Part shown: piece by piece, positions 7,829 through 41,369 of the stretch
Layout: each line of letters starts with the position of its first letter
How positions within the stretch are numbered: the first letter of the stretch is position 1
Source: Nostoc sp. TH1S01
GTDB lineage: Bacteria > Cyanobacteriota > Cyanobacteriia > Cyanobacteriales > Nostocaceae
Direction of reading: 5' to 3'
Length of the DNA: 46,998 bases
Assembly: GCA_018993265.1 (NCBI GenBank)
Contig: JAGKSW010000145.1
Coordinates: forward strand, 1-46,998
Program-made: the position numbers and the translations under genes
The notes under the pieces: model-generated
The model's database searches: none
What the model was told of the DNA's origin: nothing
The model's input: only the letters and a program-made list of their open reading frames with translations

Positions 7829-8965
7829 ATGTCTTTATTTACAAATTTAATCAATCTGCATTCAGGCAGTAAACCATTAGAAGACTTTTTTACTGAAATT
7901 GTTGCTTACTTTTTCTCAATTAATAAACATTTACTAATTGCTTGGTTGAAACATAACTTAATTATTAGTGATGAGTATTATTCCAGCGTCAACATTACAA
8001 CACAGAAGTATTACGAACTATTAGAGAATCATGAACACGGTAGTCAGCCTGATATTGTAATTCAATTAGCTAATGATACTAAAACAGAGATAATATTTAT
8101 CGAATCAAAAATAGGTTCCACAGAAGGATGGCAGCAGTTAAAAAACTATGCTGAAATTTTGAACAGTTTACCATACTATAGCCAGCAAACGCTAATTTAC
8201 GTTACTCGTGATTACGAACCAAAGCAAGAGATTAAAAGCTTCATAAAAAATAATTTGCCCAAAGTTAAATTTTATCAAATTAGATGGTATCACTTTCATA
8301 ATTTTTTAAAAAATAACTTTAATGATATTTTAGCTAAAGAAATATTAATGTTTATGGAAATTAATAAAATGTCGCAAAATAATCAACTTTCACCTGTTGA
8401 TATATTAGCAATGAAAAGTTTTAATAAAACACTCAATTTTATGGAAGCAACTCTCAGCGAAGAAGTTAAAGTAAAATTTCAACAACTTTTTGCAGGGATT
8501 AGCATAGCTAACCTAGATAGTTTATATCAGTTTAAATATCAGAAAAGATACATAATTGGAACTAGGCTGTTTAACAGAAGTTGGGGTTTTTGGTGTGGGC
8601 TTGGATATTTTGATTTAGAGCCAATTAACTTAAATGAATATCCATCACTAGGAGTTTGTTTAGAGGTTGAGTCCTATTATAAAAACCATAAGCTACTTGA
8701 ATCTATGCAAACAGTAATAAAAGATAAGCCAGATGAATGGTTTCCTCTTTACTTACAGGAATATCCAGCAGTTCCAGCCATAATTTATAAAAAAAGTCTA
8801 CAGTCTTTTCTTGCTACGGATGACCAACTGTCTGCTATTAAACAATTCTTTTTAGATTCTATTGATGAACTGAAAAATATTCAACATTATTTTGATGTTC
8901 CTTGGAAGGATATTAGTGCAGAAGAAGTGATAGCAGAAGATAGCAAGATTGAAGGCGGCCTATAG
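7829..8965 (+). CDS. PD-(D/E)XK nuclease superfamily protein
   Basis: 378-residue soluble protein, probably a DNA or RNA nuclease of the PDDEXK_4-like group. The catalytic signature is Asp75 (QPDIVIQL), then Glu92-Ser-Lys94 (IFIESKIGS), with Gln102 in the following helix (GWQQLKNYAEIL). The remaining two thirds show no domain I recognise. The gene is very A+T-rich compared with the nif genes and uses many AAT, ATT and TTA codons, consistent with transfer. It stands alone and converges with the penicillin-acylase gene, 38 bases away. Such nucleases are common in defence regions, but no partner gene is next to it. Confidence 0.75.
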   Translation: MSLFTNLINLHSGSKPLEDFFTEIVAYFFSINKHLLIAWLKHNLIISDEYYSSVNITTQKYYELLENHEHGSQPDIVIQLANDTKTEIIFIESKIGSTEGWQQLKNYAEILNSLPYYSQQTLIYVTRDYEPKQEIKSFIKNNLPKVKFYQIRWYHFHNFLKNNFNDILAKEILMFMEINKMSQNNQLSPVDILAMKSFNKTLNFMEATLSEEVKVKFQQLFAGISIANLDSLYQFKYQKRYIIGTRLFNRSWGFWCGLGYFDLEPINLNEYPSLGVCLEVESYYKNHKLLESMQTVIKDKPDEWFPLYLQEYPAVPAIIYKKSLQSFLATDDQLSAIKQFFLDSIDELKNIQHYFDVPWKDISAEEVIAEDSKIEGGL

Positions 8966-31059: not shown

Positions 31060-31395
31060 TTAACCTACTGCAAAATCTGTAAACTTCCGCATAGAAGGTG
31101 AATGAAAGCCAACTACAATATCTTGTTTTGGCACTCCCATTTTTACTAATTCATCCGCTATGTCTATTTCAGTTGAGTTCCACTGAATCCAAATTTTTTC
31201 ATTTTTGATGTCGATGTGCATTGAACAGCCATAAACACGACATTTATTTTCCCAACCGATATGAACAATTTGATAATGATTGCGTTCTGTATCAAAAATA
31301 GTTTCTACTTCAATATCTCCATAAGCAGGTTTATAACTTGCATATTTTGTTAGGAGTTGCTGAACATACTGCCGATATTGATCTAGTTTTGCCAT
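31060..31395 (-). CDS. xisI: XisI family protein
   Basis: 111-residue XisI family protein (family named for the fdxN element excision controlling factor). Family text includes YRQYVQQLLTKYASYKP, VETIFDTERNHYQIVHIGWENKCRVYGCSMHIDIK, IWIQWNSTEIDIADELVKMGVP and DIVVGFHSPSMRKFTDFAVG. In Anabaena PCC 7120 XisI and XisH are needed, with the recombinase XisF, for cell-type control of fdxN element excision. Its start overlaps the end of xisH by 13 bases. XisHI pairs are numerous in cyanobacteria and most are not linked to fdxN, so a role with the xisF 3 kb away is likely by position but not certain. Confidence 0.92.
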   Translation of the reverse strand: MAKLDQYRQYVQQLLTKYASYKPAYGDIEVETIFDTERNHYQIVHIGWENKCRVYGCSMHIDIKNEKIWIQWNSTEIDIADELVKMGVPKQDIVVGFHSPSMRKFTDFAVG

Positions 31396-31799
31396 GTTAC
31401 GATCTCCTGAGTGTCAACATCATAAATTAACAACTTGACTTGATATTCTTGAATTTGCATTTGGGTAAAAGGAAGCATAAAAAAATCGTTATAAGTTTCC
31501 AGGTTAACTGCTAAATATAAAATACGTTCTGGTTGTTTTTGTCTCAATGCAGTGCGGTAGTTGAGAAATTGACCAAAGGCGGTATGAAAGTCAGCGATGG
31601 CTGATGTACTAATGAAACTTTTGATTTCAACAGCAATTTTTCGACCATTTTTTTCAGCAGCAATTAGTTTTTCAGCCCCCAAATCAATATACATTTGCAC
31701 TCCACCAAAGCTAATGTACAAGGGGTCATCAGTAATTAACCAACCATCTTTTTGTAATGCCGATTTCACAATATTGTGAAATTTATCCTTCGCTGACAT
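31383..31799 (-). CDS. xisH: XisH family protein, PD-(D/E)XK-like
   Basis: 138-residue XisH family protein. The first part, DKFHNIVKSALQKDGWLITDDPL, is the family hallmark. A nuclease-like signature follows: Asp39 (MYIDLGAEKLIAAEK), Glu58-x-Lys60 (IAVEIKSF) and Gln77 (HTAFGQFLNYRTAL), suggesting a PD-(D/E)XK fold. It is needed for fdxN element excision in Anabaena PCC 7120. Expressed ahead of xisI on the same strand as xisF, as I recall for PCC 7120. The overlapping small-gene pair, one nuclease-like, also resembles a toxin-antitoxin layout. Confidence 0.92.
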   Translation of the reverse strand: MSAKDKFHNIVKSALQKDGWLITDDPLYISFGGVQMYIDLGAEKLIAAEKNGRKIAVEIKSFISTSAIADFHTAFGQFLNYRTALRQKQPERILYLAVNLETYNDFFMLPFTQMQIQEYQVKLLIYDVDTQEIVTWQN

Positions 31800-34623: not shown

Positions 34624-34752
34624 ATGGCTTACGAATCTTGGTCACAAGTTGTCATTCGTACAGTTCTGGAATGGGAAAGACGTAAAACAGGGTTAAAATC
34701 TACCTCGGATCTTCCAGAACAAAAAACAAAGTCCAAACGCAAAATTGCCTAA
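34624..34752 (+). CDS. Possible 42-residue protein tail-to-tail with xisF
   Basis: ATG at 34624 opens a 42-codon frame (MAYESWSQVVIRTVLEWERR, then a Lys-rich end KTKSKRKIA) whose stop overlaps the xisF stop by 3-4 bases on the opposite strand. The composition, a short amphipathic helix with a basic tail, looks protein-like. Its size and position next to a large serine recombinase recall small recombination directionality factors, but I recognise no family. An unrelated small protein is equally possible. Confidence 0.45.
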   Translation: MAYESWSQVVIRTVLEWERRKTGLKSTSDLPEQKTKSKRKIA

Positions 34753-36293
34753 TAACGATACTCAATGGCTGTCACGAAGTTGCCATCTACAAATATTTTT
34801 TTGATGCAGCCATTGAGTATTAATTTTTTATCTTGAGCTTCTAGTTCTTGCCAGTAACTTTTATTAGCAAAAGCCTGTATAATTCGTTCTTTAGCAATTA
34901 GCGATTCTTTGACTGTATTATTTATTGTTTCAAGCGCGATTGCAATTTGTTCTTTCAGGTCATTTTTGATTTGTTCAATTGCTGAACTTGGTGGCAATGT
35001 TTCCAGAGTATTCAGCGATGCACGCAGTGTTTTTACTTCTGGTGGTTCATCTACAGAAACTTGCTCATCTGTGTCAACCAAATTCGCTAAACGTTCGGCT
35101 TCTTGTGCTAAGAAATCTACTACTTGGATATCTAATATTTTTGATGAAATCATATTTTTATTGCTACAGTTACCAGCTTTATACAAACGGCACTGATAAT
35201 AATAAATAGCTTCACCATCTTTATTTACTCGTTTTGCATGGCGCGTCATCGAACCGCCACAATGAGCGCATTTGATTAAATTAGCAAATGGGTTTACTTC
35301 GTTGTCTTCTCTGGAAGCCCAGCGATTATTGCGATTTTCTCTGATAATTTGTTTGACTCGTTCGTGTTCTTCATAGGTAATTATTGCCTGATCATCATGA
35401 GTTCCCCATTTTACTTTCCACTCGTCAAAGTTTTTGCGTTTTCCCTTTGACTTAACGTAAGTATCATAAGGCAAACCCCCAGCATAAACAGGGTTTACTA
35501 ATAACGCTTTTAAACCTGCGATCGACCATCTCAACCCAGACCAAGGATAACGCAAGGGGTGGTTAGCTTTATTGGGTGTAAATACAATCTTATCTAAGTC
35601 ATCGTCACTAACTATTCGTGAAGATGTTTCTGGCTTGTGCAAATCAAAAGCTTTTGTTTCTATACCGAAATCTGCGTGCAGCTTCCGCACAGTCGCCGCC
35701 ACCGAACCGCACTCAAAAAAAGTGTTAAAAATATATCTAGCTACATCAGATACAGTTAATTCTCTACGTCCTTCTAATAAGCAAACGCATGGTGAGCGAT
35801 CGCAGATATATTTATCTTTGTCGATACGATATCCTAATGGTGCAACTCGGTGGCTTTTTCCTTGATTTACCCGATGACGACGTTCACTCTTTAACCTCTC
35901 TGTCACCATTCGCACTTCAAATTTGGCAGCCGCCAGCAACATATCAATTGTTAATTCCCCGCCCAGGCTGTCAGGGTCAACTCCTTGGTCTAAAGCTATC
36001 AGTTTAATTCCCTTGGAACGCAACACCTCCAACAATGAATAAAACAACCGCGATGATGAACCAATCCGGTCAATCCGGGTAAATTGCAGAGATTTAACTT
36101 TACCCTTGGGCGAAGTCTTCAAATCATTAATTAATTGTTGTAGCCCTTCCCTGACTTCAGTTGTCCGTGACTGAATATCCCAATATACTTTAGAACATCC
36201 TGCACCGCGCAAGCGTTCTATTTGTTTACGCAACGCACCTTTATCTGTTTGCTGTTCTTCACCACTGACTCTGGCATAACCCCAAATTTCCAT
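34749..36293 (-). CDS. xisF: XisF, fdxN element site-specific recombinase (large serine recombinase)
   Basis: Cuts and rejoins DNA at the fdxN element borders during heterocyst development. 514 residues, the length I recall for Anabaena PCC 7120 XisF. The resolvase domain is ~1-150: YARVSGEEQ with nucleophile Ser10, LQFTRIDRIGSSSRLFYSLLEVL and FEVRMVTERLKSERR. The recombinase domain follows (~165-340), then a zinc ribbon (CAHCGGSMTRHAKRVNKDG with CRLYKAGNC at ~358-395), a coiled coil (~425-475) and a C-terminal IKKIFVDGNFVTAIEYRY. The gene starts only ~50 bases from the fdxN border and is transcribed away from nifS, as in Anabaena. Confidence 0.95.
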   Translation of the reverse strand: MEIWGYARVSGEEQQTDKGALRKQIERLRGAGCSKVYWDIQSRTTEVREGLQQLINDLKTSPKGKVKSLQFTRIDRIGSSSRLFYSLLEVLRSKGIKLIALDQGVDPDSLGGELTIDMLLAAAKFEVRMVTERLKSERRHRVNQGKSHRVAPLGYRIDKDKYICDRSPCVCLLEGRRELTVSDVARYIFNTFFECGSVAATVRKLHADFGIETKAFDLHKPETSSRIVSDDDLDKIVFTPNKANHPLRYPWSGLRWSIAGLKALLVNPVYAGGLPYDTYVKSKGKRKNFDEWKVKWGTHDDQAIITYEEHERVKQIIRENRNNRWASREDNEVNPFANLIKCAHCGGSMTRHAKRVNKDGEAIYYYQCRLYKAGNCSNKNMISSKILDIQVVDFLAQEAERLANLVDTDEQVSVDEPPEVKTLRASLNTLETLPPSSAIEQIKNDLKEQIAIALETINNTVKESLIAKERIIQAFANKSYWQELEAQDKKLILNGCIKKIFVDGNFVTAIEYRY

Positions 36294-36336
36294 AACAACG
36301 CATAGATACGACTTTCAATTATATTTGATAGTAACT

Positions 36337-36354
36337 ACTTCTAGTCTCAGAAGT
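36337..36354. other. fdxN element right border (XisF attachment site)
   Basis: FdxN-coding sequence begins at 36345 (TCT CAG AAG), preceded in frame by TAG (36342-36344) where fdxN of other strains has a Tyr codon. ACTTCT (36337-36342) and AGAAGT (36349-36354) are arms of a dyad whose axis falls on TC at 36345-36346. The Anabaena border repeat is TATTC by memory; here the sequence is TAGTC, so only TA-TC agrees. I infer a two-base TC crossover. Confidence 0.7.
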
Positions 36355-36401
36355 TCTCTGAACAAATGCAAAAGCATCAGGGTGAAATATTAGGGGTATA
36401 A
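36345..36401 (+). pseudogene. fdxN: 3' fragment of fdxN, separated from its 5' part by the element
   Basis: Eighteen codons plus TAA encode SQKFSEQMQKHQGEILGV, matching the C-terminus of the Anabaena bacterial-type ferredoxin FdxN as I recall it. Out of frame upstream, the preceding triplet is TAG. The 5' part with the cysteine motifs is not in this window and should lie at the other border of the element. Excision would join them and restore a Tyr codon. The stop is 2 bases before the nifS ATG, so after excision fdxN and nifS are co-translated. Confidence 0.9.
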
Positions 36402-36403
36402 GA

Positions 36404-37606
36404 ATGAGCGTCATTTATCTAGATAATAATGCGACTACTAAGGTAGACCCACAGGTTTTAGAGGCAATGATGCCTTATTTAACCGAATATTACGCCAACC
36501 CCTCAAGTATGCACACCTTTGGCGGGCAACTGGCTAAAGCAGTGAGAACAGCCAGAGAACAGTTAGCCGCCCTCTTAGGTGCAGATGAATCAGAAATTGT
36601 TTTTACCAGTTGTGGAACCGAGGGAGATAACGCAGCCATTCGCGCCGCTTTGTTAGCCCAGCCAGAAAAGCGCCACATCATCACCACCCAAGTAGAACAT
36701 CCGGCGGTGCTGAATGTCTGCAAACAGCTAGAAACCCAAGGTTACAGTGTTACTTATCTTTCGGTGAATGGTCAGGGGCAGTTGGATCTAGATGAACTAG
36801 AAGCCTCACTGACAGGGAATACCGCCTTGGTCAGCATCATGTATGCTAATAACGAGACAGGTACGGTTTTCCCGATTGAGCAGATTGGATTGCGCGTCAA
36901 AGAACGCGGCGCACTGTTCCACGTAGATGCAGTGCAAGCAGTGGGTAAGATTCCCCTGAACATGAAGACCAGTACAGTAGATATGTTAACTATGTCTGGT
37001 CATAAGATTCACGCACCCAAAGGTATTGGCGCGTTGTATGTGCGCCGGGGCGTGAGATTCCGTCCCCTGTTAATTGGTGGACATCAAGAACGCGGTCGCC
37101 GCGCGGGTACAGAGAATGTTCCTGGTATCGTTGGTTTAGGGAAAGCAGCCGAGTTGGAATTGCTGCATTTAGAAGAAGCAACTGCGAGAGAAAGACGGTT
37201 GCGCGATCGCTTGGAACAAACTCTCCTTGCTAAAATACCTGATTGTGAAGTTAACGGCGATACCAAAAATAGATTGCCCAACACCACCAACATCGGTTTT
37301 AAATATATCGAAGGTGAAGCAATCCTACTTTTGTTAAATAAACACAATATCTGTGCCTCATCTGGTTCCGCTTGCACCTCTGGTTCACTCGAACCATCCC
37401 ACGTTCTGCGGGCAATGGGTTTACCATACACCACTTTGCATGGTTCCATTCGCTTCAGCCTTTGTCGCTACACCACCGACGCTGAAATCGATCGCGTCAT
37501 TGAAGTCATGCCCGAAATCGTAGAACGTCTCCGCGCTCTGTCGCCATTCAAAAACGACGACGCAGGTTGGTTGCAATCTCAAGAACAAACACTGGCACAT
37601 CGGTAA
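36404..37606 (+). CDS. nifS: Cysteine desulfurase NifS
   Basis: PLP enzyme that removes sulfur from cysteine and passes it to NifU for nitrogenase Fe-S cluster building. 400 residues. The PLP lysine is Lys201 (TMSGHKIHAPKG), the PLP ring stacks on His99 (QVEHPAVL), and the catalytic cysteine is Cys324 in the mobile loop NICASSGSACTSG. RRAGTENVPGIVGLG and the start MSVIYLDNNATTKVDP are typical. Sits 2 bases after fdxN's stop and 113 bases before nifU, with short repeats between. In Anabaena it is transcribed with nifB-fdxN-nifSU, so expression in this arrangement would depend on element excision or an internal promoter. Confidence 0.97.
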   Translation: MSVIYLDNNATTKVDPQVLEAMMPYLTEYYANPSSMHTFGGQLAKAVRTAREQLAALLGADESEIVFTSCGTEGDNAAIRAALLAQPEKRHIITTQVEHPAVLNVCKQLETQGYSVTYLSVNGQGQLDLDELEASLTGNTALVSIMYANNETGTVFPIEQIGLRVKERGALFHVDAVQAVGKIPLNMKTSTVDMLTMSGHKIHAPKGIGALYVRRGVRFRPLLIGGHQERGRRAGTENVPGIVGLGKAAELELLHLEEATARERRLRDRLEQTLLAKIPDCEVNGDTKNRLPNTTNIGFKYIEGEAILLLLNKHNICASSGSACTSGSLEPSHVLRAMGLPYTTLHGSIRFSLCRYTTDAEIDRVIEVMPEIVERLRALSPFKNDDAGWLQSQEQTLAHR

Positions 37607-39926: not shown

Positions 39927-41369
39927 ATGACACCTCCAGAAAACCAAAATCTTGTAGATGAAAATAAGGAACTTATTAAAGAAGTTCTGCAAGCTTATCC
40001 AGAAAAATCTCGTAAAAAACGCGAAAAACACCTCAACGTCCACGAAGAAGGTAAGTCCGATTGCGGCGTTAAGTCTAACATCAAATCCATTCCTGGTGTA
40101 ATGACCGCTCGTGGTTGTGCTTACGCAGGTTCTAAAGGTGTGGTTTGGGGCCCTATTAAGGACATGATCCACATCAGCCACGGCCCAGTAGGATGCGGTT
40201 ACTGGTCTTGGTCTGGTCGTCGTAACTACTACGTAGGTGTAACTGGTATCAACTCTTTCGGTACCATGCACTTCACCTCCGACTTCCAAGAACGCGACAT
40301 CGTATTCGGTGGTGACAAAAAACTCACCAAAATCATCGAAGAACTTGAAGTTCTCTTCCCCTTGAACCGTGGTGTTTCCATCCAATCTGAATGTCCCATC
40401 GGTCTAATCGGGGATGACATCGAAGCTGTTGCTAAAAAAGCTTCTAAGCAAATTGGTAAACCAGTTGTACCCCTACGTTGCGAAGGTTTCCGTGGTGTAT
40501 CTCAGTCTTTAGGACACCACATCGCTAACGACGCTATCCGTGACTGGATTTTCCCTGAATTTGACAAAGCTAAGAAAAACAATACTCTCGACTTCGAGCC
40601 AAGCCCCTACGACGTAGCATTAATCGGTGACTACAACATCGGTGGTGATGCTTGGGCAAGCCGGATGTTATTAGAAGAAATGGGCTTGCGTGTTGTAGCT
40701 CAGTGGTCTGGTGACGGTACACTCAACGAGTTGATTCAAGGCCCTGCTGCTAAATTAGTTCTGATCCACTGCTACCGTTCTATGAACTACATCTGCCGTA
40801 GTTTGGAAGAACAATATGGTATGCCTTGGATGGAATTCAACTTCTTCGGCCCCACCAAGATTGCTGCATCTTTACGCGAAATTGCAGCTAAATTTGACTC
40901 TAAGATTCAAGAAAACGCTGAGAAAGTCATCGCTAAGTACACACCAGTGATGAATGCGGTACTTGAAAAGTATCGTCCTCGCTTGGAAGGTAACACCGTT
41001 ATGTTGTACGTAGGTGGTCTACGTCCTCGTCACGTTGTTCCCGCTTTTGAAGATTTGGGTATCAAAGTTGTCGGTACAGGCTACGAATTCGCTCACAACG
41101 ACGACTACAAACGTACCACCCACTATATCGATAACGCCACCATCATTTACGATGACGTTACCGCCTACGAATTCGAGGAATTCGTTAAAGCTAAGAAGCC
41201 TGACCTAATCGCTTCTGGTATTAAAGAGAAGTACGCCTTCCAAAAGATGGGTCTTCCCTTCCGTCAAATGCACTCTTGGGATTACTCCGAACTTGGCAAT
41301 GGGGCGAAAATGTCAGGTAAATCAATATTTTATTGTGGTGGTAGAAAAAAGAGTCTATTTTTAGCCTAA
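39927..41369 (+). CDS. nifD: Nitrogenase MoFe alpha subunit NifD, 3' end replaced by element sequence
   Basis: Catalytic alpha chain of the MoFe protein. The first 454 codons (to 41288) are genuine NifD; the last 26 ([13 protein letters not shown] and on) are encoded by the nifD element, ending at TAA 41367-41369. P-cluster Cys include Cys64 ([10 protein letters not shown]), [11 protein letters not shown] and QSECPIG. FeMo-co ligands Cys282 (LIHCYRSMN) and His449 (MHSWDYS) are both retained. The missing end (about 40 residues after DYS) lies with nifK beyond the far border. The unexcised protein is probably inactive or unstable. High-expression codon use stops exactly at the border. Confidence 0.96.
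41279..41289. other. 11-bp core of the nifD element left border
   Basis: GGATTACTCCG at 41279-41289 is identical to the 11-base direct repeat flanking the nifD element of Anabaena PCC 7120, as I recall it. NifD similarity stops immediately after it (TCC, then element GAA). XisA, a tyrosine recombinase normally at the other end of the element near nifK, would act here. The second copy is not in the window. Confidence 0.93.

Follow-up and report, generated by a model that had tools for sequence, protein, structure and literature searches.

The closest described counterpart of the locus analyzed here is the fdxN element of Anabaena/Nostoc PCC 7120, whose borders reportedly carry the five-base repeat TATTC. 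Our locus shares with that element the interruption of fdxN behind nifB, an xisF gene close to the right end and encoded on the other strand, the presence of xisH and xisI, and TATTC at the left border; it differs in the right border, which reads TAGTC. Other genomes of the family also contain XisF-like elements in nifK and in a gene that we take to be hupS. Their geometry is the same, but the interrupted genes and the sequences of the arms are different, the recombinases have about half of their residues in common with XisF and, in the case of nifK, the core is either TC or AG.

A survey of such elements included three fdxN and eight nifK cases, defined repeats by exact match, placed the nifK recombinase closest to XisF, reported xisH and xisI as required for excision and considered seven inverted cases likely mis-assemblies (PMC4874684). 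The words 'dinucleotide', 'crossover' and 'inverted repeat' do not occur in the main text of that survey, and we found no XisF cut position in the sections consulted. For phage large serine integrases (the Listeria LI integrase and phiJoe), the relevant portions of two reports describe a two-base central crossover and imperfect inverted attP arms (PMC3783163, PMC5311408). The system described below appears to share the two-base core and the inverted attP arms with these integrases, and differs from them in that excision of the fdxN element is part of cell differentiation and in the reported requirement for xisH and xisI. We found no paper on the dinucleotide of a heterocyst serine recombinase or on the fdxN TATTC in the openly accessible literature, subscription journals lying mostly outside this search. 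The fdxN element is of a known kind, and we do not claim priority for assigning its core, an earlier assignment simply not having been found in the searchable literature.

The two borders of the fdxN element in Nostoc sp. TH1S01

The window, that is, the whole stretch of 46,998 nucleotides that was analyzed, is one contig (C104) of a source genome of 7.65 Mb in 247 contigs. Its features relevant to this work are the following:

31060..31395, - strand: xisI (Pfam PF08869, E 3.7e-49)
31383..31799, - strand: xisH (Pfam PF08814, E 1.6e-59)
34749..36293, - strand: xisF, large serine recombinase (Pfam Resolvase, Recombinase and Zn ribbon domains, above cut-off)
36318..36323, - strand: TATAAT, a possible -10 box for xisF immediately beyond the P arm; conserved in most of 22 elements
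36324..36344, + strand: P half-site, a 21-base arm consisting of TTTGATAG and 13 bases, then the core; it ends in TAG and mirrors the P' arm of the left border (14/21 paired in this genome)
36345..36346, + strand: predicted crossover dinucleotide TC, core of attR (left/right border identity; axis of the attP dyad)
36345..36401, + strand: 3' end of fdxN, 18 sense codons and a stop, read directly; the 5' half is on contig C115
36347..36367, + strand: B' half-site, coding sequence of fdxN, matching the intact fdxN of same-genus relatives
36404..37606, + strand: nifS, directly 3' of the fdxN tail (NCBIfam TIGR03402, above cut-off)

Positions 36345-36401 (TCT CAG AAG ... GGG GTA TAA) contain the last codons of fdxN and lie beside xisF at the right border of an fdxN element. 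As the initial annotation had pointed out, these codons come directly after an in-frame TAG (36342-36344) and close to xisF, whose ATG at 36293 lies 51 bases from the core, the gene reading away from the border. The 301 bases around this border occur only once in the source genome, and downstream of the fdxN tail nifS is followed by nifU and nifH, all with family matches above cut-off (NCBIfam). The xisF, xisH and xisI genes are full-length open frames matching their own families, and XisF has relatives with 82-95% identity in 21 other genomes, the closest named ones being those of Nostoc sp. FACHB-110 and FACHB-280 (95%), which identical coordinates match to G160 and G162. The stretch with xisH and xisI presumably lies inside the fdxN element, which spans more than one contig.

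Elsewhere in the window, the nifD ORF (39927-41369) matches the NifD family only up to profile position 439 of 466; its frame passes through HSWDYS and then continues with about 26 unrelated-looking residues. The corresponding stretch (41280-41369) is likely a second element border, that of a nifD element, on the same contig.

The other border, which the annotation had placed downstream of nifB, was located on contig C115. There, an uninterrupted nifB is followed by the left half of fdxN, 98 codons ending TGT TAT TCT and then TAA AAG, with the core TC at 8189-8190. The gene is split as in the fdxN element, its 5' part after nifB and its 3' part before nifS, and no complete copy, beside nifB or elsewhere, was found in this genome: the single match at E<=1e-25 covers query residues 1-102 and contains an internal TAA. 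The left border reads TATTC and the right one TAGTC, so that the five-base sequence is not identical at both ends. Close to the end of a third contig (C19), another nifB start is fused in frame to the end of a 2Fe-2S ferredoxin (L003, 1393-2256; Radical_SAM 65-213, Fer2 211-273); this fusion may have arisen by recombination of two genes that were each interrupted, or it may be a remnant or a chimera of the assembly.

Joining the two fdxN halves at TC would give TAT TCT CAG AAG, as previously predicted, and the same codons are present in the intact fdxN of two same-genus genomes (G161 and G166). Intact genes from relatives (22 genes read of 23 loci, L100 being left out) have TAT TC at this site in 21 of 22 cases, among them those of all four genomes of the source genome's genus that lack the element (G161, G163, G165 and G166). 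The exception, G148 (L113), has TAT AC, with a Thr codon, which indicates that TC is not fixed by the fdxN gene itself. An exchange at TC would also convert the TAG TCT of the right border into TAT TCT, while an exchange to the left of 36344 would leave the stop in place. This replacement of a stop by a Tyr codon, emphasized in the initial annotation, is right on paper but looks incidental. Neither ATG, GTG nor TTG is present in the right fragment between the previous in-frame stop (36303) and the TAG, and the left fragment is itself terminated by TAA directly after Ser-98; for these two reasons the replacement is unlikely to work as a switch. The Fer4 motif (residues 3-25) belongs to the part of fdxN left of the break. 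A likelier consequence of the insertion would be that nifS and the genes behind it are separated from the nifB side of the operon.

Comparison of border pairs in three target genes

A search of 217 genomes of the family for XisF gave 75 with an XisF-like match at E<=1e-40 and 22, the source genome included, with a match of at least 82% identity. The left fdxN border was recovered in all 22. The P end to which the fdxN tail is joined is the one beside xisF in 20 of them; in the other two (G019 and G017) it is a further, distal one that was located by a search for the tail. Both borders are on one contig and in the direct orientation expected for excision in 16 genomes, on separate contigs in five (the source genome among them) and inverted in one (G202).

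TC is identical at the left and right borders of all 22 fdxN elements. The base before it (-1) is unequal, T on the left and G on the right, in six of them (G000, which is the source genome, G157, G162, G159, G160 and G198), and the base after it (+1) is unequal in four others (G158, G125, G014 and G181), so that no other dinucleotide is common to both borders in the whole set. Provided that one mechanism holds for all the elements, these mismatches would exclude the neighboring dinucleotides. This pattern does not depend on aligning the cores: when the outer element motif (CTATCA-like, 13 bases from the core) served as the anchor for both borders and offsets from -12 to +12 were counted, the dinucleotide at offset 0 was equal in 22/22 fdxN elements and that at the next best offset in 20/22.

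The right borders read TATTC in 14 elements, TAGTC in six, TGTTC in one and GGCTC in one, so eight of the 22 depart from TATTC. The TAGTC that the annotation had regarded as unusual is indeed the sequence of our right border, but it is not a one-off: it is found in five of the seven in the genus of the source genome and in G198. As the right borders vary in their first three bases, what all of them have in common with their left borders is TC and not a five-base repeat. We considered TATTC as a functional five-base repeat and rejected it, positions -1, -2 and -3 being variable between borders, and we would not treat this repeat as defining the fdxN element family. A further right border, in Tolypothrix sp. 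FACHB-123 (L074), reads TATTC; only the right side was read there.

To the right of the core, the letters at the two borders of the same strain tend to agree. Over ten bases, 164 of 220 left/right letters match, compared with 152.6 expected by re-pairing within groups of related genomes (164 was reached in 8 of 20000 shuffles); on the tree, which offers few independent pairs, no sign test of this mirroring reaches 0.05. Strain-rare letters beside the core are present at both borders in, for example, G159 (AAAGAAG) and G160 (TCAGCAG). That letters next to the core match as if by conversion is only a lead.

The comparison was extended to 47 paired XisF-family elements, 22 in fdxN, 21 in nifK and four in the presumed hupS. 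The name of the third target is our assumption, as a 72-residue piece gave only a sub-threshold Pfam match (PF01058) and no NCBIfam match. For nifK, whose element recombinases are 51-54% identical to XisF, both borders were obtained in 21 of 24 genomes examined; left out were G063 (no P motif beside the recombinase), G194 (right border not found, left core AG) and G032 (nifK intact with TC, besides an AG right border whose left partner was not found). The nifK core is TC at both ends in 15 elements and AG at both ends in six, never mixed. In the hupS-type elements (four genomes tried), the core is TC and equal at both borders in 4/4. The joined products are conserved as well, NifK reading H-x-R-S-L-L-F in 21/21 (HLRSLLF in the intact NifK of G032) and FdxN reading YS in 22/22. 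No target gene was recognizable in the upstream regions of the 44% relatives L169-L171.

The geometry common to the three groups is an outer motif, 13 bases, a two-base core and mirror-image arms. Offset 0 is the only position at which the dinucleotide is identical on the left and right in 47/47 pairs, the next best offset giving 38/47, although these pairs share descent, so that the number of independent tests is far below 47. Serine codons begin with either TC or AG, and in fdxN, nifK and hupS the core coincides with such an opening pair of bases, which may be a chance coincidence of three genes out of three. At least four switches of the nifK core between TC and AG are required by the recombinase tree and by the nifK tree alike (both quickly built, some of their forks being weak); for instance, G031 (TC) and G030 (AG) are sisters on both trees within one genus group, which represents one core switch. 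We regard these joint switches, together with the axis of attP in the three genes (see below), as the strongest independent evidence for the core.

Arms around the core and competing explanations

The initial annotation had based the TC crossover on a dyad in attR, ACTTCT-N6-AGAAGT (36337-36354), whose axis does lie between 36345 and 36346. This dyad is weak, as attR over the 22 fdxN elements has 8.05/21 complementary bases with the TC axis and 8.36 with another, and, since TC does not stand out, we have set it aside as main evidence. What it reflects is a short stretch common to B' and P', and the informative dyad is that of attP in the excised circle. When attP was reconstructed by joining both element arms as in that circle (P-TC-P'), the 21-base arms of the fdxN elements were complementary at a mean of 15.9/21 positions with the axis on TC and at no more than 7.9 with the other axes tried. 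In the source genome 14/21 are paired; shuffling one arm 100000 times gave that many in 82 cases. Similar results were obtained for nifK (14.7/21 at the position of the TC/AG core and 7.9 elsewhere) and hupS (14.0/19 at the core and 9.8 elsewhere). The TAG preceding the core is the mirror image of a CTAGAAG motif in the other element arm, and in G198 the sequence CTTCTAG-TC-CTAGAAG forms a perfect palindrome around TC.

In the serine integrase model, the motif of the zinc ribbon is expected to lie nearer to the core in attB than in attP, by five bases. Summed over four B halves, this shift ranked first among the offsets; it is only weakly visible, with single ranks of 2, 14, 7 and 2 of 25. Beyond the P arm, positions 22-27 read T, A, T, A, A and T in 19, 20, 17, 19, 21 and 20 of the 22 fdxN elements, and the P' arm of the same elements lacks this TATAAT consensus. 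As regards a change in the xisF promoter upon excision, this conserved TATAAT was all that was seen, no -35 box being settled; XisF sitting on attR might mask its own promoter.

With a probability of about 0.87, we consider that 36345-36346 is the core of attR, and that XisF would cut with a two-base stagger at both TCs, rejoin fdxN and release an attP circle. XisF would bind the P and B' half-sites on either side of the core and make staggered cuts at 36345-36346 and at 8189-8190 of C115, and the rejoining would produce an fdxN reading ...TAT TCT CAG AAG... and a circle with P-TC-P'. The recombinase has the three domains of the large serine recombinases, the central dinucleotide is equal at both borders and the attP arms are inverted about it; the two-base overlap and the rotation of subunits are presumed from this family. 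Comparison among genomes shows the two borders, the anatomy of the half-sites, a core whose position does not vary and, in nifK, cores that switch together at both ends. The two-base TC crossover proposed in the initial annotation is thereby strongly supported by comparison.

An exchange at CT (36346-36347), or anywhere in the shared TCT, would fit the source genome taken alone, where both borders read TCT and the +1 base is T on both sides, so that its exclusion rests only on the relatives. There, the +1 base differs between borders in the four fdxN pairs mentioned above, offset +1 gives equal dinucleotides in just 29 of the 47 pairs and the attP axis falls on TC and not on CT, and we consider such an exchange very improbable. 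We give marginally less credit to the explanation that the shared letters are simply a conserved Ser codon, which any element inserted there would display. The position of the core in all three genes and the YS found in 21/22 intact FdxN proteins agree with it, but the borders are half element and half gene, and separate copies still agree in every one of the 47 pairs. In addition, the right border has element DNA to the left of the core and the left border has it to the right, and the borders diverge there; the attP dyad consists of element DNA on both sides; and the nifK elements carry TC or AG together at both ends. Just as hard to accept is that the border is a decayed remnant, no longer excisable, whose T-to-G mismatch marks the loss of function. 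The one-base difference within the TATTC repeat of PCC 7120 would fit such decay; against it speak the full-length xisF, xisH and xisI frames, the same TAG border in four other same-genus genomes and in G198, all with xisF frames without stops, and the family matches of nifS, nifU and nifH downstream.

Composite and inverted elements and the role of the core

An exchange at TC would also offer a reading of the irregular elements. G019 (L090) and G017 (L089, its parts being on two contigs) have an extra P-type end: the second end, without xisF beside it, is joined to the fdxN tail and carries TC, and the P end on the xisF side has the core GT in G019 and CC in G017. Because only the outer pair of ends has matching cores, excision according to the core rule would be expected to take out the entire composite and leave fdxN rejoined. 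In G202 (C1 1920664-1944174; L121 and L122), the two parts of fdxN point towards one another, and the space between them has nifS-, nifU- and nifH-like frames after the fdxN tail. Since simple excision could not rejoin oppositely oriented halves, recombination at TC would restore fdxN there by inversion, unless the assembly is wrong.

We tentatively propose, at less than even odds, that the core of the XisF family could be a free address code. The recombinase would read the arms and need only matching cores, so that the core could follow the Ser codon of the host gene (TCN to AGY) at both borders; short-tract conversion would maintain the match, and the non-matching extra ends of the composites (GT in G019 and CC in G017) would be silenced.

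Finally, the natural variation of these borders narrows the predicted XisF cut to two bases across three target genes. The rule of an outer motif, 13 bases and a core would predict the cut site of other XisF-type elements, and the nifK strains with TC or AG, together with the mismatched ends in G019 and G017, provide natural test cases for it.
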